Of a stretch of 64,000 nt of DNA, positions 47,562 through 59,744 are shown piece after piece (within the stretch, counting starts at the first letter, position 1; every line of letters begins with the position of its first letter). A model generated the notes under the pieces. It was not told the DNA's origin and searched no databases. It was given only the letters and a program-made list of their open reading frames with translations. This stretch comes from Elusimicrobiota bacterium. Lineage in GTDB: Bacteria > Elusimicrobiota > Elusimicrobia > Elusimicrobiales > UBA9959. Where the stretch lies: the NCBI GenBank assembly GCA_019135865.1, contig JAGVVD010000019.1, positions 186,001 to 250,000 of the forward strand, written 5' to 3'. The translations under genes and the position numbers were made by a program.

Positions 47562-47590
47562 TTGACCCTCGGGCGGTTAAGTGTTACAAT
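47562..47590 (+). promoter_or_regulatory. promoter for nikR with overlapping inverted repeat
   Basis: TTGACC (47562-47567), a 17-nt spacer and TACAAT (47585-47590). The ATG at 47601 is 10 nt past the -10, so the mRNA is nearly leaderless. GTTAA (47576-47580) and TTAAC (47591-47595) flank the -10 symmetrically and might be an operator for autoregulation (weak). Confidence 0.65.
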
Positions 47591-47600
47591 TTAACTAAAG

Positions 47601-48017
47601 ATGACACGCAAGACCTCCCTGTCCCGTTTCGGCGTCTCCCTGGAGGGGGACCTGCTCGAGCGCTTCGACGCCTACATCGCCTCCGAGGGCTACGACAACC
47701 GCTCCAAGGCCATAGCCGACCTCATCCGCAAGGAGTTCGTCTCCGACGATTTCAAAAAGGGCGCCATAGTGGCCGGCGCCGTCACGCTGGTCTACGACCA
47801 TCACCGCCGCGAGGTGGTCAACCGCCTCATGGACATACAGCACGACCACGGCGGGATCATAATCTCCTCGCAGCACGTGCACCTGGACCACGACAACTGC
47901 CTGGAGATCATAGCGGTGAAGGGCCGCGGGGCCGAAGTGAAGCTGCTGGCCGACGCCCTGAAATCCGTGAAAGGCGTAAAGCACGCTACGCTGAGCGTCA
48001 CCAGCGCCGGTAAATAA
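47601..48017 (+). CDS. nikR: nickel-responsive regulator NikR
   Basis: This is a ribbon-helix-helix repressor that binds DNA when loaded with Ni(II). The 138-residue protein has the N-terminal RHH domain (TSLSRFGVSLEGDLLERFDAYIASEGYDNRSKAIADLIR) and a C-terminal ACT-like domain. All square-planar nickel ligands are present: His81, His92, His94 and Cys100 in QHVHLDHDNC (E. coli numbering 76, 87, 89 and 95). It is followed by the outer-membrane protein and the nikMNQO importer, its expected targets. Confidence 0.95.
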   Translation: MTRKTSLSRFGVSLEGDLLERFDAYIASEGYDNRSKAIADLIRKEFVSDDFKKGAIVAGAVTLVYDHHRREVVNRLMDIQHDHGGIIISSQHVHLDHDNCLEIIAVKGRGAEVKLLADALKSVKGVKHATLSVTSAGK

Positions 48018-48071: not shown

Positions 48072-48812
48072 ATGAAAAAACACTTGTTCGCGGTCGGTTT
48101 GCTTGCGGTCTTTTGCGGCAGGGCGGCGGCCATGCACCCCCTGATAACCGAGGATACCGGCTTTTTGGGCAAAGGAGGGCGGCAGGCGGAGATAGGTTAT
48201 GAATATTCGGCCGCGGAGGAGGGGACCGATGTTTATTCCCGTTCCCTGGCGGCGGAGGTTTCCTACGGCCTCAACGACAGGACCGACTTACTGCTCACTA
48301 TCCCGTTCGGGGGCTGGAGTTCGGCCGGGACTTCGGAAGACGGCCCTGGCGACCTGGCGCTGGACGCTAAATTTCAGGTCGCCGAAAAAGCCGGCTGGGC
48401 CTTCGCCCTTAAACCCGGGCTTTCCCTGCCTACCGGGGACGATAAAAAAGGCCTGGGCGCCGGGAAGAGCGGTTACTGGGTTTACGGCGTAGCGGGGCGC
48501 GCTTCGGGCGCGTGGCAGTATTACGTGAACGCCGGCTACCTGCTCAACAAGAACAAAGCGGGCGAAAAAGAGGATATCCTCAAAGCCTCCGCCGCGGCCG
48601 CCTATGAGGTGATGGAGAAGACGCTGCTCTCGGTGGACCTGGCCTACGAGACTAACGCCGACCCGGCCGCGGCCTCACACCCGCTGTCCTCGGTCTTCGG
48701 CATTGTCTGGTCCCCAAAAGACACGCTGGACCTGGACGTCGGCGTGAAAGCCGGCCTTAACGACGCGGCCGACGACCTTGGCCTGCTGGCGGGCGCGACT
48801 TTTCGGTTCTAA
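48072..48812 (+). CDS. outer-membrane beta-barrel, copy 1 (candidate metal porin)
   Basis: The 246-residue precursor has a signal peptide (ending CGRAAA). The mature N-terminus MHPLITEDTGFLG is followed by alternating strands and the end DLGLLAGATFRF with a C-terminal Phe. It belongs to the transporter-type outer-membrane barrels (similar to the PF13557 family pattern). It lies between nikR and nikMN. A close paralogue at 51623-52366 shares STEDTGFLG, GLGAG, YGxAGR and GLNDAAD blocks. Nickel entry across the outer membrane is inferred from context. Confidence 0.75.
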   Translation: MKKHLFAVGLLAVFCGRAAAMHPLITEDTGFLGKGGRQAEIGYEYSAAEEGTDVYSRSLAAEVSYGLNDRTDLLLTIPFGGWSSAGTSEDGPGDLALDAKFQVAEKAGWAFALKPGLSLPTGDDKKGLGAGKSGYWVYGVAGRASGAWQYYVNAGYLLNKNKAGEKEDILKASAAAAYEVMEKTLLSVDLAYETNADPAAASHPLSSVFGIVWSPKDTLDLDVGVKAGLNDAADDLGLLAGATFRF

Positions 48813-51622: not shown

Positions 51623-52366
51623 ATGAAAAAGACCGCCATATTCTTTTCCTCTGTTTTATTCGCCTGCGGCACCGCCGCGGCTTTCCACCCGATGTCCACC
51701 GAGGATACGGGATTCCTGGGTCGGGACGTCATACAGGCCGAGGTCGGCTTCGATCATACCGAGGACACCGACGCTTCCGACTATTTCTCCAACACCCTGT
51801 CGGCCACTTTCTCATACGGCCTCTGGGACAAGCTGGACCTGCTGCTCAGCGCGCCCTGGCAGGGCTGGGATTCCGCCGGTTTCTCCGAGAGCGGCCTCGG
51901 CGACGTCTCCATGGAGGTCAAATTCTGGGTGGCCGAGCGGAGCGGCTGGGACCTGGCTCTCAAACCGGGCTTCTCACTGCCCGCCGGCGACGACGCCAAA
52001 GGCCTGGGCGCGGGGGAAGGACAAGTCTGGATCTACGGCATAGCCGGGAGGACCGACGGGCCGCGCCAGTACTATGTCAACGCGGGTTATAAGTACAACC
52101 GCAATTCCTCCGGCGAAGAGAAGAACATCCTCAGTGCCTCGGCTCTGGGCGCGCTGGAAGTGCTGCCAAGGACGCTGCTGGCCGCCGAACTGGCCGTCGA
52201 GACCAATACGGACAAGGACGCTGTCTCCCACCCGGTCAGCTCCATGCTTGGCCTGGTCTGGTCGCCGGTCCCGACGCTGGACCTCGACGTCGGAGTCCGG
52301 TACGGCCTGAACGACGCCGCCGACGAACTCTCCCTGATCCTGGGCGCCACTCTCCGTTTCGAATAA
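51623..52366 (+). CDS. outer-membrane beta-barrel, copy 2 (candidate metal porin)
   Basis: The 247-residue precursor has a signal peptide (ending CGTAAAF) and HPMSTEDTGFLG at the mature N-terminus. It is colinear with copy 1 (48072-48812) over its whole length, with shared SYGL-x-D/K-x-DLLL, LALKPG-S-LP-GDD-KGLGAG and LDLDVGV-GLNDAAD blocks. It sits between nikO and the second NikR-like gene and ends in Phe-Glu. The duplication and its pairing with each regulator suggest differential metal-dependent expression. Confidence 0.75.
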   Translation: MKKTAIFFSSVLFACGTAAAFHPMSTEDTGFLGRDVIQAEVGFDHTEDTDASDYFSNTLSATFSYGLWDKLDLLLSAPWQGWDSAGFSESGLGDVSMEVKFWVAERSGWDLALKPGFSLPAGDDAKGLGAGEGQVWIYGIAGRTDGPRQYYVNAGYKYNRNSSGEEKNILSASALGALEVLPRTLLAAELAVETNTDKDAVSHPVSSMLGLVWSPVPTLDLDVGVRYGLNDAADELSLILGATLRFE

Positions 52367-52432: not shown

Positions 52433-52458
52433 GCGATACTCATAACTTTTGGTAGAAT
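52430..52458 (+). promoter_or_regulatory. promoter of the second NikR-like gene
   Basis: TTGGCG (52430-52435), a 17-nt spacer and TAGAAT (52453-52458). The ATG at 52468 is 10 nt downstream, again implying a nearly leaderless mRNA; an in-frame ATG at 52462 would lie upstream of the expected start site of transcription. Confidence 0.6.
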
Positions 52459-52467
52459 ATTATGACT

Positions 52468-52869
52468 ATGAAAATGGAAAGATACACCGTCTGCCTCGAA
52501 AAGGGCCTGCTGGGCAGGCTCGACGAGATAGTGGTCGAGCGCGGCTATCGCAGCCGCTCGCAGGCCATGGGAGACTTCATCCGCCGCGCCATAGTCAAGA
52601 GGGAATGGCGAGGCGGCCGCGAATGCGCCGCCTCCGTCTCCCTGGTCTACGGCCCTGGCGACGGGAGGATCTCCGCCGGCGTGGAGAAACTCCTCAAGGC
52701 CGGAGGGGCCTCCATCCTCTCCTCGACCTCGCACCTTCTGCCCGGCGGCCGCGCCATGATCACGATATCGCTGAAAGGTCGGCCCGCCGCCCTGCAGAAG
52801 CTCGCCGACTCGCTGCGAGCCCTTAAAGGCGTGACGCACGGCTCCTTCTCGATAATAGCCCCGCTCTAG
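52468..52869 (+). CDS. NikR-like regulator lacking the nickel site
   Basis: The 133-residue protein aligns with NikR: RHH domain (ERYTVCLEKGLLGRLDEIVVERGYRSRSQAMGDFIRRA) and ACT-like domain ending LRALKGVTHGSFSI. In the ligand segment, SSQHVHLDHDNC of NikR is replaced by SSTSHLLPGGRA, so the counterparts of His92, His94 and Cys100 are Ser, Leu and Ala; the partner His81 is lost too. It therefore cannot bind Ni(II) in the NikR way, although dimer and DNA-binding features are kept. It is followed by the TonB-dependent receptor. It may sense another ligand or act constitutively. Confidence 0.85.
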   Translation: MKMERYTVCLEKGLLGRLDEIVVERGYRSRSQAMGDFIRRAIVKREWRGGRECAASVSLVYGPGDGRISAGVEKLLKAGGASILSSTSHLLPGGRAMITISLKGRPAALQKLADSLRALKGVTHGSFSIIAPL

Positions 52870-52893: not shown

Positions 52894-54900
52894 ATGGGAA
52901 AATACCGCCTGCTGTGCGCTTCGCTGTTCCTTGCCGCCGCCGCGGAGGCGGCCGAGGTGCATCTGACCGTGCTCACGCCCGGCCGAGCGCCTCGCGCGCT
53001 GGCCGAAGTGCCGGCATCCGTGGAAGTGGTGCTCCCCGATCAGCTCGCTTCCGTTCCCGGCGCCGCTATCGACGAGAAACTGGCTTCGCTGGTGCCCGGC
53101 CTGGACACCGGCCGCGCCTCGGGGGACATAAACGACCGCACGGCCGCGGTGACCATGCGCGGCTTCGGCCTAGGCGCGCAGGGCGGCCGGGGCCAGGGGC
53201 GCACCCTGGTCCTGCTCGACGGTGTCCCTCTCAATAACGCGGCCAACGGCGGCGTCAACTGGAACGACCTCGCGGTCGGGGACATAGACCGAGTGGAGGT
53301 GGTCAAAGGCCCGGCTTCCTCGCTCTACGGCTCCAATTCCATGGCCGGCGTGGTCAATATCATCACCCGGAAGCCGGGGGCGGGCCGGCTCATAGAGACC
53401 TCTTTCGGTTCTTACAATACTTTCGACCTCGGCGCCCGCCTCGGCGGAAAGATCGGCCCACTCTCGCTGCAGGTATTCGGCAGGACCATGCGCAGCGACG
53501 GCTATACCAAGGCCCTGGAGGCCGACAGGGACGCCTATACGCGCCGGTCCTATACCGACGAGGACGCCGCGGGCCTGCGCGCCGCCTACGACCTGGGCGC
53601 CGGCGGCGCCCTGCGCGCCGATATCTCCCGCTTCGACGGCGTCGTCGGACTGGGCACCAATTACCGCGGCACGGCGCGGGGGGAATACCGAGAGAGCGTC
53701 ACCGACCTGGCCAGGCTGTCATGGAACGGGCCTCTTGGCGGCTTCGAGTGGTCCGCTTCGGTATTCGACCAGAGCACGGAGCAGACCCGCGAGGAGGGCG
53801 TCAGCACCACGAAACTGACCGATATAAGCGTGGACAGGTGCGACCGCGGCGCGCTGGTCTCGGCCTCCGGCGAAATGCTCGGCCTCGATTCCGTGTTCGG
53901 TTTCGACTGGCGCCGGGGCCGCGTCGACGGCTACGACGATTACAAAAACGGCAAGTACGCCCGCGATATCGGTGCGGCGGATACCGGCTCGCCTTTTCTT
54001 CATTTCGGCCGCAGGCTCGCCGGCGGCAGGCTCAGCCTGGACGCGGGCCTGCGCTACGACAGGGCGAAGTTCTACGACGGCTACGCCGAGAACACCAATG
54101 CCCCCGGATTTTTCACCGGCGCCCTGGCAGAGCGCTCCTGGTCGCGCCTGACCCCGGGTTTTTCGGCCGGCTATAAGTACGGCCCGGCTGTCTCGCAGTA
54201 TATCTCCTATGCCGGCGGCTTCAGGCCCGCGGAACTGGAGAACATGGTCCTGACGCTGGTGAAAGGATCCGGTGCGACCAAGTGGTACCAGAAGCCCAAC
54301 CCGGACCTGGGGCCGGAGAAGAGCGAGACCGTGGAGACAGGCTTCCGGCTGAACCCGCTGCCGGGCCTCTATTCCGATCCGTCCGCCTACCTGACCCGCG
54401 CGCGCGATTTCATCTACCAGATAACCACCGGCGTTACTGACCCGACCTACGGCACCGAGAAGATGTACACCAATGTCGCGAAGGTCGGGATATACGGCTT
54501 CGAGCTGCCCGTTAAATACATACGCGGCGGGTTCTCGGTCTCCGCCTCCTACGCGCAGTCGCATTCGCGCATTACGGACTCCCCGGCCCTGCCTTCTATC
54601 AAGGACAAGGAACTGACCTACGCGCCGCGGCATATCTGGTCGGCCGGGCTCGCATGGAAAAAGGGCCCCTGCGCCTTCTCCGCCTCATGGACGCATAAGA
54701 GCCGCCAGTTCACCGATGACGCCAATACCGCGTCGGTGTCCGGCTATTCTACCGCCGGTTTCGGCGTCTCGCGCGACCTGGGCGGCGGTTCCTCGCTCTC
54801 CCTGCGGCTGGACAATGCTTTCAAGGAACTCCATCAGAGCTCCGACGAAGAATTCGCGCCGGGCCGCATGGTCTCGGCGGCGCTGAAGGCGGCTTTCTAA
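52894..54900 (+). CDS. TonB-dependent outer-membrane receptor
   Basis: This is an energised outer-membrane importer. The 668-residue precursor has a signal peptide (ending AEAAE). A plug domain follows (about 35-165, with TMRGFG, VLLDGVPLNN, DIDRVEVVKGPASSLYGSNSMAGVVNIITRKP), then a 22-strand barrel ending LKAAF. It begins 24 nt after the NikR-like gene and ends directly before the membrane-NTPase gene. A nickel or metallophore substrate is inferred from context; a cobamide or iron chelate cannot be excluded. Confidence 0.9.
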   Translation: MGKYRLLCASLFLAAAAEAAEVHLTVLTPGRAPRALAEVPASVEVVLPDQLASVPGAAIDEKLASLVPGLDTGRASGDINDRTAAVTMRGFGLGAQGGRGQGRTLVLLDGVPLNNAANGGVNWNDLAVGDIDRVEVVKGPASSLYGSNSMAGVVNIITRKPGAGRLIETSFGSYNTFDLGARLGGKIGPLSLQVFGRTMRSDGYTKALEADRDAYTRRSYTDEDAAGLRAAYDLGAGGALRADISRFDGVVGLGTNYRGTARGEYRESVTDLARLSWNGPLGGFEWSASVFDQSTEQTREEGVSTTKLTDISVDRCDRGALVSASGEMLGLDSVFGFDWRRGRVDGYDDYKNGKYARDIGAADTGSPFLHFGRRLAGGRLSLDAGLRYDRAKFYDGYAENTNAPGFFTGALAERSWSRLTPGFSAGYKYGPAVSQYISYAGGFRPAELENMVLTLVKGSGATKWYQKPNPDLGPEKSETVETGFRLNPLPGLYSDPSAYLTRARDFIYQITTGVTDPTYGTEKMYTNVAKVGIYGFELPVKYIRGGFSVSASYAQSHSRITDSPALPSIKDKELTYAPRHIWSAGLAWKKGPCAFSASWTHKSRQFTDDANTASVSGYSTAGFGVSRDLGGGSSLSLRLDNAFKELHQSSDEEFAPGRMVSAALKAAF

Positions 54901-56544
54901 ATGAGCCCGGCGGCCCGCGAACTGCTCTGGCGCAAGGCCGCCGTGCTCGGCAGCCTCTGGGCCGCTTCCGAGATAATCCTGGGCAGTTTCCTCAAGAACG
55001 CGCAGGTCCCCTTCGCCGGCGTGCTGCTGACGGGCATCGGGGTCGCGATACTGATCGCCGGCCACCGCCTCTGGCCCGAGAAAGGGCTGCTCTGGCGCGC
55101 GGGACTCGTCTGCGCCGCCATGAAATCGGTCTCGCCCAGCGCGATACTGCTCAGCCCCATGGTCGCCATCTTCGCCGAGGGGATGCTGGCGGAACTGGCC
55201 GTGCGATTTATCGGCGGCAATGCCGCCGGCTATATCGCCGCCGGCGGGCTGGCCATGAGCTGGGGGCTCGTCCACAAGATAGGCAAGCTCCTGCTCTTCT
55301 ACGGCCCCGAGTCGCTGCAGGTCTATGTCAAAGGCCTCGAGAAGCTGCGCGACTGGCTGGGCCGGCCGGGCGGAGTCTGGGAGCCGCTGGCCTTTCTCTT
55401 CGCCGTCTATTTCGCCGCCGGAGCCGCGGCCGCGCTGATCGGCATGAAGGCTTCCGCGGACGGGGAAAAGGTCCCCGTCAAGAAGCGCGCGGCGGACATT
55501 TTTAAACCGCGCCGCGGCGGAGAGGAGCCCGGCTACTATTCGGCGGCTTTCCTCGCCCTGCACCTTCTGGCCATAGCCGGGCTGATGACTTCCGGCCGCC
55601 TGCCGCTTTTCCCGGCGGCCGGCCTGAGCCTCGTATACGGCCTCGTCTGCGCTTTCTTCTACCGCCGCGCCTCCGCCCTGCTCTCCCGGGCGGGGCTCTG
55701 GACCGGCATAGCCGCGGTCTCGCTGCTGGCCGGCTGGCTGCTGGGCGACCGGGGTTCCGGCCTGCGCATGGCCGCGCGCGCTTTCGCCGTGACGCTGGGC
55801 TTCGCCGCCGTCGCGCAGGAACTGATGAACCCGCGCGTCAGGGCCTGGCTGGAAAAAGCCGCCGGCCGCGGCTTCTTCGACACGCTCGAATATTCTTTCG
55901 CCTCGCTGCCGCTGGTGCTGGAATCCCTGCCGTCGGGGCGCGACATGGCGCTTCGCCCCGCCGCCTCGCTGCGCACCGTCATAGCCCGCGCGCCGGGGTT
56001 GCTCGACTCCCGCGGGGCGCCGGTCTTCTTCGTGTCCGGCCCGAGAGGTTCGGGCAAAAGCACCCTGATAGCCGGGATGGCCGCCCTGATGCGCGAAAAG
56101 GGCCTCAGGCCCGCCGGCATACTGGCCGAAGGCCTGGTGGAGAACGGCGTCCGCTCGGGTTTCGACCTCGTCGACCTTTCGACCGGCGCGCGGACACCGC
56201 TGTGCCGCCGAGGCGCCGCTTCGCCGGTGAAAGCGGGGGAATTCGGCTTCTTCGCCCAAGGACTGGCGGCGGGTGAAAAGGCGCTCTCCGCGGAAAGCCT
56301 GCGCGGCGCCGACGCGGTCTTCATCGACGAGATCGGCTTCCTGGAACTGGAAGGCGGCGGCTGGGCCCCGGCCCTGGAGCGCATCCTTAAAAAAAGCCGG
56401 GTTCCCTTGATACTTTCCGTCCGCGACGAACTTTTCGCTCCCGTCGCCTCCCGCTGGGGAATAGCGCCGGCGGCCGTCCTCCGGGCCGGGACTTCGCCCG
56501 TTTCGGCCCTCGCTTCCGTTGACGGCCTCCTGACGTATTGCTAA
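54901..56544 (+). CDS. polytopic membrane protein fused to a THEP1-like NTPase domain
   Basis: The 547-residue protein has two membrane modules and a soluble C-terminal domain. Module 1 (about 1-185) has five or six helices reminiscent of ECF substrate-binding subunits. Module 2 (about 200-330) includes ARAFAVTLGFAAVAQELMNPRV and could resemble an ECF T component. The C-terminal domain (about 375-547) is a THEP1-type P-loop NTPase: Walker A GPRGSGKST (380-388), Walker B AVFIDEIGFLEL and a helix pair. It starts directly after the receptor stop codon. Energised inner-membrane uptake of the receptor's substrate is a plausible role; similarity to ECF modules is weak and by eye. Confidence 0.75.
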   Translation: MSPAARELLWRKAAVLGSLWAASEIILGSFLKNAQVPFAGVLLTGIGVAILIAGHRLWPEKGLLWRAGLVCAAMKSVSPSAILLSPMVAIFAEGMLAELAVRFIGGNAAGYIAAGGLAMSWGLVHKIGKLLLFYGPESLQVYVKGLEKLRDWLGRPGGVWEPLAFLFAVYFAAGAAAALIGMKASADGEKVPVKKRAADIFKPRRGGEEPGYYSAAFLALHLLAIAGLMTSGRLPLFPAAGLSLVYGLVCAFFYRRASALLSRAGLWTGIAAVSLLAGWLLGDRGSGLRMAARAFAVTLGFAAVAQELMNPRVRAWLEKAAGRGFFDTLEYSFASLPLVLESLPSGRDMALRPAASLRTVIARAPGLLDSRGAPVFFVSGPRGSGKSTLIAGMAALMREKGLRPAGILAEGLVENGVRSGFDLVDLSTGARTPLCRRGAASPVKAGEFGFFAQGLAAGEKALSAESLRGADAVFIDEIGFLELEGGGWAPALERILKKSRVPLILSVRDELFAPVASRWGIAPAAVLRAGTSPVSALASVDGLLTYC

Positions 56545-56550
56545 CATCTG

Positions 56551-56572
56551 GTTATTGGCATATGCCAATAAC
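56551..56572. promoter_or_regulatory. 22-bp perfect palindrome abutting the DUF134 gene
   Basis: GTTATTGGCAT followed directly by its reverse complement ATGCCAATAAC ends 1 nt before the ATG at 56574. It is a likely operator, probably for the DUF134 protein itself. The internal ATG at 56562 is in frame with the gene. Confidence 0.75.
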
Positions 56573-56573
56573 T

Positions 56574-56900
56574 ATGTCCAGACCCCGGAAATGCAGAAGA
56601 ATAAAGGATTCTCCCAGGTCGTACTATTTCAAGCCTTGGGCCGTCCCGATGTGCGAACTTGAAGAAAACGTGCTGCTGCTGGAGGAGTTCCAGGCGCTCA
56701 AGCACGCCGACCTCGATGGGCGGGATCAGGCCGCCGGCGCCGCCGCCATGGGCGTTTCCCGCCAGACTTTCGGGAATATTCTCGCTTCCGCCCGGAGGAA
56801 ACTGACCGATGCCGTAGTCAACGGCAAAGCCCTGAAGATCTCGAAAGTTCAGGCACGGACCGCCGCCGCGGAGGCAGAGATGGGACAGCATGGAAAGTAA
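56574..56900 (+). CDS. DUF134 family DNA-binding protein
   Basis: The 108-residue protein shows the DUF134 pattern: MSRPRKCRRI, a Cys-containing FKPWAVPMCELEENVLLLEEFQALKHADLDG and the helix-turn-helix AAGAAAMGVSRQTFGNILASARRKLTDAVVNGKAL. Family members are small sigma-4-like HTH regulators common in anaerobes near NifX-family genes, as here. Met-56574 gives the family's standard N-terminus. It overlaps the thioesterase gene by 11 nt. Confidence 0.9.
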   Translation: MSRPRKCRRIKDSPRSYYFKPWAVPMCELEENVLLLEEFQALKHADLDGRDQAAGAAAMGVSRQTFGNILASARRKLTDAVVNGKALKISKVQARTAAAEAEMGQHGK

Positions 56901-57714: not shown

Positions 57715-58182
57715 ATGAGCCGCCATAAATACCACGATCCCAACTGCTGCTGCCGCCATATGCGCGGTCACGGGCGCAGGATGACCCCGGCCCGCCATGC
57801 CGTGCTGGACGCGTTGGGAGAGAGGGGAGAGCACCTGACGGCCGAAGAGGTTTTCAGGAGCGCTTCCCGCCGCTGTCCCGATATCGGTCTGGCCACCGTC
57901 TACCGCACGCTGGAGCTAATGACCAGGCTAGGCGTGGCCAGCAAGTTCGATACCGGGGACGAAAAGGCGCGCTACGAGCTGGCCGAAGGACCGAAAGCCA
58001 AGGGTCATCACCATCACCTGGTCTGCACCTCCTGCCGGCGCATCGTGGACTATAAGGATTTCATAAAGGAAGAGACGGAACTGCTCAGGAAGACCGAGGA
58101 GGGGCTCGCCAAAAAATACGGCTTCCGCATCGACAGCCATCTGATACAGTTCCACGGCCTTTGCCCGGACTGTCGTAAATAA
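57715..58182 (+). CDS. Fur-family metalloregulator
   Basis: The 155-residue protein has a Cys/His-rich N-terminus (HDPNCCCRHMRGHGRR), a winged helix (TPARHAVLDALGERGEHLTAEEVFRSA ... GLATVYRTLELMTRLGVA) and a dimerisation domain with HHHHLVCTSC and the C-terminal CPDC structural zinc site. Both flanking Fur boxes are identical, so it likely controls its own gene and the downstream cluster operon. Fur, PerR or Zur specificity cannot be decided by eye; the TGAGAAT half-site favours iron. Confidence 0.92.
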   Translation: MSRHKYHDPNCCCRHMRGHGRRMTPARHAVLDALGERGEHLTAEEVFRSASRRCPDIGLATVYRTLELMTRLGVASKFDTGDEKARYELAEGPKAKGHHHHLVCTSCRRIVDYKDFIKEETELLRKTEEGLAKKYGFRIDSHLIQFHGLCPDCRK

Positions 58183-58199
58183 TTTTTTTTCGGATTTAA

Positions 58200-58214
58200 T
58201 GAGAATAATTCTCA
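58200..58214. promoter_or_regulatory. Fur box 2 in front of the metal-cluster operon
   Basis: An identical TGAGAATAATTCTCA lies 20 nt upstream of the DUF5320 start codon. It places the NifX-MinD-NifU-Mrp operon under the same regulator. Confidence 0.85.
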
Positions 58215-58234
58215 ATAGCTTTCAGGAGGTGCTT

Positions 58235-58474
58235 ATGCCATACGGAGACGGAACGGGCCCCAACGGAACCGGGCCCATAGGATGGGGCAGGGGCCCCTGC
58301 GGACGCGGCGGCGCGCGCCGCGCCGGCGGCGGACCTGGCCGCGGGCCCTGGCCGGGCCGGCGCGGAATGTTCCAGGCCCCGCAGGAAGCCGGTCCGGACA
58401 GGACCGCGGAACTGGAGGCCAGGATAGCCGAACTGGAGAACCGGCTCGGCGGACAGAAAGACCAGGGCAGGTAA
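58235..58474 (+). CDS. DUF5320 family small Gly-rich protein
   Basis: The 79-residue protein begins MPYGDGTGPNGTGPIGWGRG, the DUF5320 signature. A Gly/Arg/Pro-rich middle and a short C-terminal coiled-coil (TAELEARIAELENRLG) follow. Family members are routinely encoded next to NifX-family and MinD-like iron-sulfur proteins, but their function is unknown. CAGGAGGTG gives a strong ribosome site. It is first in the Fur-box operon. Confidence 0.87.
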   Translation: MPYGDGTGPNGTGPIGWGRGPCGRGGARRAGGGPGRGPWPGRRGMFQAPQEAGPDRTAELEARIAELENRLGGQKDQGR

Positions 58475-58529
58475 AAACCACGGCGCGGCGCGGGGCCTTC
58501 CCCGCGCCGGCCGACACCATGGAGACGCG

Positions 58530-58904
58530 ATGAAAATAGGGATAACTCTCAACGACGGCAAAGGCCTCGACAGCGAGGTCTGCGCCCATTTCGGGCAGTG
58601 CAGCCATTTTCTGATAGTCGATACGGACGGCGAAAAGATAACCGCCTCCAAAGTGGTCGAGAATACGGCCGTGCACGGGGGCGGAGGATGCCAGGCCGTG
58701 GGCGAGATACTCAAGTACGGCATCACCCATGTCATAGCCGGCGGGATGGGCATGGGCGCGCAGAACAAGTTCGCGGCCGCGGGCGTGCCGATCTTCGGCT
58801 ACTGCGGCAAGGCCGGGGACGCCGTTAAGGAACTGCTCGTCAGCAAGCTGGGCGGCATAGACCCCTGCAAGGACCACGGCCACGACGGGGACTGCGCGCA
58901 TTAA
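58530..58904 (+). CDS. NifX/NifB-family (dinitrogenase iron-molybdenum cofactor-type) protein 1
   Basis: The 124-residue ribonuclease-H-like domain protein (KIGITLNDGKGLDSEVCAHFGQCSHFLIV) belongs to the family that includes NifX, NafY and the orange protein ORP, which bind iron or molybdenum-sulfur clusters. The C-terminus is Cys/His-rich (PCKDHGHDGDCAH), suggesting metal binding. It ends directly before the first MinD ATPase. Confidence 0.9.
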   Translation: MKIGITLNDGKGLDSEVCAHFGQCSHFLIVDTDGEKITASKVVENTAVHGGGGCQAVGEILKYGITHVIAGGMGMGAQNKFAAAGVPIFGYCGKAGDAVKELLVSKLGGIDPCKDHGHDGDCAH

Positions 58905-59744
58905 ATGAAGCTCGCCGTAGCCAGCGGGAAGGGCGGCACGGGCAAGACCAGTCTCGCCTGCGCCCTGGCGCGCGCCCTGGGTGGGCGCGCCGCCCTGCTG
59001 GACTGCGACGTGGAGGAGCCCAACGCGGGCATCTTCCTGAACCCCTCCATAGACTCCGAAACGACGGTCGCCTCGCCGGTGCCCGTCATAGACCCCGGCA
59101 GATGCAAGGGGCACGGGCGCTGCCAGGAGGTCTGCGAGTACAACGCGATAAAACTTTTCAACGGCGAACCGTTCCTCTTCGAGCATCTCTGCCATTCCTG
59201 CGGCGGCTGCGTGATAGCTTGTCCCGAGGGCGCGATAACCGAGCGCCGGCGGCCGATAGGCGTGACCCGCGCGGGGATGGCGGGGGATATTTTCTTCGCC
59301 GACGGCCTGCTTGCCATAGGCGAGGCCGCGCCGGTGCCGCTCATAAAGGCGGTAAAAAAGCTGGCCCCGCCGGACCGGGACCTTATCATAGATTGTCCGC
59401 CCGGCACCTCCTGCCCGATGATAAACTCCGTCAAGGACGCGGACTTCTGCCTGCTGGTCAGCGAACCGACGCCTTTCGGCCTCAGCGATCTCAAGATAGC
59501 CGTCGAGACTCTTCGCAAGATAGATATTCCTCACGCCCTGATCATCAACCGCTCCGACAAGGGCGACGGGGAGATGGAGCGGTGGTGCGCGGAGGAAACG
59601 ATAGAGATACTGCTCAAGATCCCTTTCGACATCGAGATAGCCCGCGCTTATTCCCGCGGCAAGACCATGCTGGAGGCCAGGCCGGAATACGCCGCCGCGC
59701 TGCGCTCCATCTACGCCCGCCTGAAGGTGGAGGCCGAAGCGTGA
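58905..59744 (+). CDS. MinD/Mrp-type P-loop ATPase with ferredoxin insert, copy 1
   Basis: The 279-residue protein has the deviant Walker A SGKGGTGKTS and LLDCDVEEPN. An inserted 4Fe-4S region follows (about 60-110, with CKGHGRCQEVC and CHSCGGCVIACPEGA), then the switch region IDCPPGTSCPM. Paired ATPases of this kind occur next to NifX-family genes in many anaerobes and in the Desulfovibrio ORP locus. It overlaps copy 2 by 4 nt. It is likely a cluster-carrying or assembly ATPase, cytoplasmic. Confidence 0.92.
   Translation: MKLAVASGKGGTGKTSLACALARALGGRAALLDCDVEEPNAGIFLNPSIDSETTVASPVPVIDPGRCKGHGRCQEVCEYNAIKLFNGEPFLFEHLCHSCGGCVIACPEGAITERRRPIGVTRAGMAGDIFFADGLLAIGEAAPVPLIKAVKKLAPPDRDLIIDCPPGTSCPMINSVKDADFCLLVSEPTPFGLSDLKIAVETLRKIDIPHALIINRSDKGDGEMERWCAEETIEILLKIPFDIEIARAYSRGKTMLEARPEYAAALRSIYARLKVEAEA

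Follow-up and report, generated by a model that had tools for sequence, protein, structure and literature searches.

A NikR-family protein without its nickel site as the probable repressor of its own TonB-receptor operon in Elusimicrobiota

What can a NikR paralogue regulate, and in response to what, once its nickel ligands are gone? The question arises from a 64-kb stretch of Elusimicrobiota DNA (the window), which encodes two NikR-like proteins on the + strand: the canonical nikR1 (47601..48017), with all ligands present, and nikR2 (52462..52869), a NikR-family protein of 135 aa with a ribbon-helix-helix and an ACT-like part and with none of the four nickel ligands. The two proteins are 33% identical. 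An earlier note on this DNA had placed nikR2 at 52468-52869; the end was correct, and the ORF is taken here from 52462, position 52468 being the second of three possible ATGs. In this region, the CbiMQO transporter genes lie between the genes of two paralogous outer-membrane proteins (48072-48812 and 51623-52366; 57% identical, Phenol_MetA_deg-like), one beside each NikR paralogue.

The assignment of nikR2 to the NikR family relies on the following observations: (i) its best sequence matches in the PDB are NikR structures (P. horikoshii NikR, E 9.5e-16), (ii) it scores 32.9 bits against Pfam NikR_C (cut-off 22), the canonical copy scoring 110.7 bits, and (iii) its single-chain AlphaFold model (mean pLDDT 87.9) matches apo, nickel-bound and DNA-bound NikR structures, with a best TM of 0.87. 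Because of this structural match, both the ribbon-helix-helix and the ACT-like folds are taken as kept, as had been proposed from the sequence. The protein misses every cut-off of the NCBIfam NikR models (69.8 bits against a cut-off of 105, 59.1 against 83, 57 against 111, 50.8 against 119 and 46.4 against 175 for the curated NikR equivalog and subfamily models). By descent and modelled fold, nikR2 is a NikR-family protein; judged by the residues of the nickel site, the defining functional feature, it is not a nickel-responsive NikR.

The ligands H78, H89, H91 and C97 of P. horikoshii NikR correspond to H81, H92, H94 and C100 in the canonical NikR of the window and to K79, S90, L92 and A98 in nikR2. 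The loss of every nickel ligand claimed in the earlier note was thus confirmed as a change from His/His/His/Cys to Lys/Ser/Leu/Ala, and this loss is far beyond chance, since all four ligands are absent from 23 of 23 orthologous sequences. The former ligand positions are among the least conserved of the protein, with 7 to 9 different residues each: AEFGKLQRV at position 79, AIMNSTV at 90, FILMPQR at 92 and AILMSTV at 98. A conserved alternative nickel site, the finding named in that note as contradicting its interpretation, was sought at the old pocket, and any conserved replacement metal site there was ruled out by the free variation of these positions. A metal site may exist elsewhere in nikR2, through the invariant Cys11 and Cys55. 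The low-affinity K+ site is partly retained: D38 is present, and the Glu is replaced by Gln or Arg.

Relatives of nikR2 were collected from genomes that are mostly metagenome assemblies. One scan of species genomes, a procedure that recovers close relatives only, returned 13 relatives, of which one came from an unclassified MAG and the other 12 from Elusimicrobia records; distant ligand-free NikRs may also occur outside Elusimicrobiota. When 290 Elusimicrobiota genomes were searched with a profile, 21 nikR2 members were recovered (E <= 1e-46), all belonging to one family and followed, after an E-value gap of 15 orders of magnitude, by the canonical NikRs. In a maximum-likelihood tree of 73 rows, which had few columns for that many rows and in which the long outlier G129 may be misplaced, the 23 distinct orthologous sequences, all from one Elusimicrobiota family, form a single clade with a long stem and support 100/99. 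A ligand-free NikR clade, for which an alignment check had been suggested, therefore exists.

Conservation is unevenly distributed along the nikR2 proteins. Mean majority identity in the DNA-binding half is 88% in the nikR2 clade versus 84% in canonical NikR, whereas in the pocket region (75-99) it is 63% versus 91%; residues 106-132 average 85%, and the THGSFSI end is retained. The closest nikR2 pairs have pairwise dN/dS values of 0.15-0.31. The conservation pattern and these ratios together indicate purifying selection on the nikR2 gene and none on the nickel site. The same data bear on the reading of nikR2 as a decaying paralogue that is becoming a pseudogene. Such decay did happen in one relative, G245, which retains only a stop-interrupted C-terminal nikR2 fragment (L151) upstream of its membrane-NTPase gene; for the clade as a whole, however, this reading is hardly credible and was rejected in view of the depth of the clade, the dN/dS values and a DNA-binding half no less conserved than in canonical NikR.

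Five residues, R7, T9, C11, C55 and Y63, are invariant in the nikR2 clade. The DNA-reading strand is R7-T9-C11, which resembles R3/T5/T7 in E. coli NikR. Both cysteines are found in 23/23 sequences and stand where canonical NikR has Ser and Val/Ile; Cys11 sits in the DNA-reading strand and Cys55 where the ACT-like domain begins, adjacent to the hinge.

In nearly every orthologue, the start of nikR2 is covered by a 28-bp palindrome, TTCATA-N16-TATGAA, that was read from the upstream sequences ahead of any pattern definition. The proposed operator of the window (TCATA-N16-TATGA; 52440..52465, + strand; TCATAACTTTTGGTAGAATATTATGA) overlaps the start codon and encloses a -10-like hexamer, TAGAAT (52453..52458, + strand). 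It is the sole exact match to the pattern in the 64-kb window, and nowhere else in the 2.95-Mb genome does a site come within 3 mismatches of the full pattern. With this arrangement, the nikR2 transcript would be leaderless or nearly so. The 24 sites compared have near-invariant arms that are 83-100% self-complementary, and they keep a TAnAAT -10 box inside, the palindrome partly coinciding with these bases, which are constrained anyway. Sites with at most two mismatches occur in 17 of the 18 nikR2-bearing genomes, usually one good site per genome, and the 18 family members without intact nikR2 have no site at 0-1 mismatches and a site in one genome at 2; the consensus was learned from nikR2-bearing genomes, and the fully independent evidence is the pattern-free reading of upstream sequences and the rearranged genomes described below. 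G260 has nikR2 and no convincing operator site. The E. coli-oriented operator, GTATGA-N16-TCATAC, was also sought in the window and gave nothing above chance.

The likely operon continues with three genes on the + strand. After 24 bp, nikR2 is followed by a TonB-dependent outer-membrane receptor (52894..54900; Pfam Plug and TonB_dep_Rec), then, with 0 bp between, by a membrane protein fused to a THEP1-type NTPase (MemNTP, 54901..56544; NTPase_1 at residues 376-510) and, overlapping the latter, by a DUF134 protein (56538..56900; Pfam assignment), the last gene. The receptor and MemNTP are the proposed targets; the receptor and the DUF134 gene are conserved neighbours. In most members nikR2 precedes a TonB-dependent receptor and/or the membrane protein, often with DUF134, and the long form of the membrane protein carries the fused THEP1-like NTPase. 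Across the family, the presence of nikR2 is associated with that of the membrane-NTPase gene (18/3/9/15, Fisher p 0.002, relatedness uncorrected). A structure search with MemNTP matched its NTPase domain only (THEP1), and its membrane part has no Pfam match. In the PDB, the receptor is related to receptors for haem, B12 and siderophores. Where a genome lacks nikR2, its membrane-NTPase protein often adjoins DUF364 'putative heavy-metal chelation' proteins; likewise, a MemNTP homologue adjoins DUF364/DUF4213 genes in related genomes, and an extra membrane-NTPase copy in G207 adjoins genes that by inspection resemble a zinc ABC transporter. Because of the DUF364 and zinc-transporter-like neighbours and the relatives of the receptor, metal chelate uptake is a reasonable guess for the function of the operon. 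No known riboswitch or RNA was found near it at Rfam gathering scores. Further downstream (57715-59744) lie a Fur-type regulator, named from a family-model search, and a NifX-like dinitrogenase-cofactor protein and a MinD-type ferredoxin ATPase, named by sequence inspection only; this group is partly conserved near nikR2 in relatives.

Gene rearrangement is the strongest evidence on the candidate operator. The genomes concerned are G272, in which the receptor gene and nikR2 are convergent, and G167, in which they lie on separate contigs; in both genomes the palindrome is found before the TonB-receptor gene and not before nikR2. A second copy in G167, with one mismatch, lies over the start of an unlinked membrane-NTPase gene. 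The placement in these two genomes indicates that the palindrome tracks the proposed targets and not just the nikR2 promoter. Candidate sites in the form of the NikR-type 27-28 bp inverted repeat were thus found at the starts of the nikR2, TonB-receptor and membrane-NTPase genes. In the deepest members, G167 and G260, the neighbour of nikR2 is a diaminopimelate decarboxylase gene (assigned by sequence in G167) and not the TonB operon.

The canonical paralogue appears to have a different address. For nikR1, which has an R-G-S reading strand, we propose the operator GTGTTAC-N13-ATGACAC (47581..47607, + strand), which covers the -10 box and the start codon of nikR1 and is the best match genome-wide. 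The canonical NikRs of the phylum mostly have the R-G-S strand, some having R-S-S, R-S-A or R-N-S, and mostly carry GTGTTAC-N13-GTAACAC over their own promoters, predicting autoregulation; the same operator was predicted for delta-proteobacterial NikR (PMC545781). Seven Elusimicrobiota NikRs outside the nikR2 clade (L174, L173, L187, L010:5910-6338, L170, L175 and L070) have lost one to four ligands, often by a change from His to Arg; they are scattered on the tree, and three of them retain a GTGTTAC-N13-GTAACAC-type operator. In L148 (G230, same genus), a TonB receptor and then a Gate-like membrane protein come immediately after a canonical NikR; TonB uptake in that genus may thus be under the control of an ordinary NikR as well.

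The distinct addresses bear on the suggestion that nikR2 forms mixed tetramers with canonical NikR and thereby lowers or redirects the nickel response. In the window the two genes lie close together, and most nikR2 genomes also carry another NikR; such close linkage is not general, however. Six genomes (G221, G222, G269, G167, G260 and G276; 81-99% complete) contain nikR2 and no other NikR, which implies that nikR2 needs no nickel-binding partner. As, in addition, the DNA-contact residues and operators of the paralogues differ, the hetero-oligomer reading of the earlier note is very improbable and is disfavoured. Its two other readings, namely that nikR2 works in the apo form or that it senses another ligand, are supported by the ligand-free clade, the purifying selection, and the putative operator and target operon of nikR2.

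We therefore favor the reading that nikR2 is probably a nickel-blind member of the NikR family and a dedicated repressor of its own TonB-receptor/membrane-NTPase uptake operon; it is the position of the operator that suggests repression. DNA binding, a tetrameric grip and nickel independence are predictions for this protein. A nikR2 tetramer would grip the two half-sites through two ribbon-helix-helix dimers, with R7, T9 and C11 on the strand. Once bound, it would block RNA polymerase at the operon promoter and limit its own level together with those of the TonB receptor and the membrane NTPase, probably in the service of metal-chelate import. Nickel at the classical site should be unable to switch this binding. 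The likeliest switch would be either a signal through Cys11 and Cys55 or none, that is, plain negative autoregulation.

A repressor switched by a non-nickel signal is a strong possibility that stops short of being probable. The signal could be thiol oxidation, a Cys-bound metal or cofactor held through C11 and C55, or the substrate of the TonB receptor acting on the ACT-like domain. The invariance of the two replacement cysteines agrees with such a sensor, as does the nature of the target operon, uptake systems being the usual kind of target for sensing repressors; however, no conserved ligand cluster was demonstrated in nikR2, and C11 may be merely a base-contact residue. A wider proposal, in which NikR was converted throughout this family to another sensor (e.g., a thiol switch via Cys11/Cys55), its operator was re-coded and a TonB-receptor/membrane-NTPase uptake operon became its dedicated target, is tentative and somewhat doubtful. 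Rather unlikely is an effectorless autorepressor, which would bind its operator constitutively, set a steady low level of the operon and sense no ligand. Consistent with it, no new set of ligands has replaced the old one at the drifting pocket positions, the operator overlaps the promoter, and there is usually one target site per genome, including the promoter of nikR2 itself. On the other hand, the ACT-like half is still under selection, as seen in residues 106-132 and in the retained end; the gain of two cysteines that have since stayed invariant points to a role in sensing or in structure; and nikR2 lacks an operator of its own in G167 and G272, where it would not be purely autoregulatory.

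On the preferred reading of nikR2 as a nickel-blind repressor, a metal-sensing repressor has apparently been turned into a regulator unable to sense nickel in the usual way. In this clade the metal site is gone but the fold remains; two cysteines have appeared and are invariant, the residues that contact DNA have changed, and a proposed operator distinct from that of canonical NikR has arisen. The clade thus offers a natural experiment on NikR allostery, above all on nickel-free DNA binding by the NikR fold, and supplies a candidate operator and regulon for a little-studied phylum. It also flags annotation errors, as nikR2-like genes would be called nickel-responsive by homology. NikR was described in a 2019 review as the only metal-regulated ribbon-helix-helix repressor (PMC7055735), and no published precedent for a ligand-less NikR was found in the open-access literature, subscription journals and preprints aside.

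Comparison with known systems delimits what is shared. With the NikRs of E. coli, P. horikoshii and H. pylori (NF003381/NF002815, PF08753), nikR2 has in common the RHH and ACT-like fold, the length, a predicted tetramer-type 28-bp inverted-repeat operator, and, as proposed here, uptake genes as targets; it differs in the missing high-affinity nickel ligands, the R-T-C reading strand and scores below all NCBIfam NikR cut-offs. The canonical NikRs of the same genomes are homologous and share a putative autoregulatory operator over their own -10 box and start, but have intact ligands, the R-G-S strand and another half-site. The E. coli operator is GTATGA-N16-TCATAC (PMC7055735), and its half-site GTATGA is that of nikR2 in reversed orientation. 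With half-sites this short, the orientation is ambiguous; NikR operators with reversed half-sites are known from earlier work (PMC545781). H. pylori NikR controls the TonB-system uptake genes fecA3, frpB4 and exbB/exbD (PMC7055735) and thus resembles nikR2, as proposed here, in being a NikR-family repressor over TonB-dependent outer-membrane uptake; in H. pylori, however, nickel is the switch, whereas in nikR2 the nickel site is missing.
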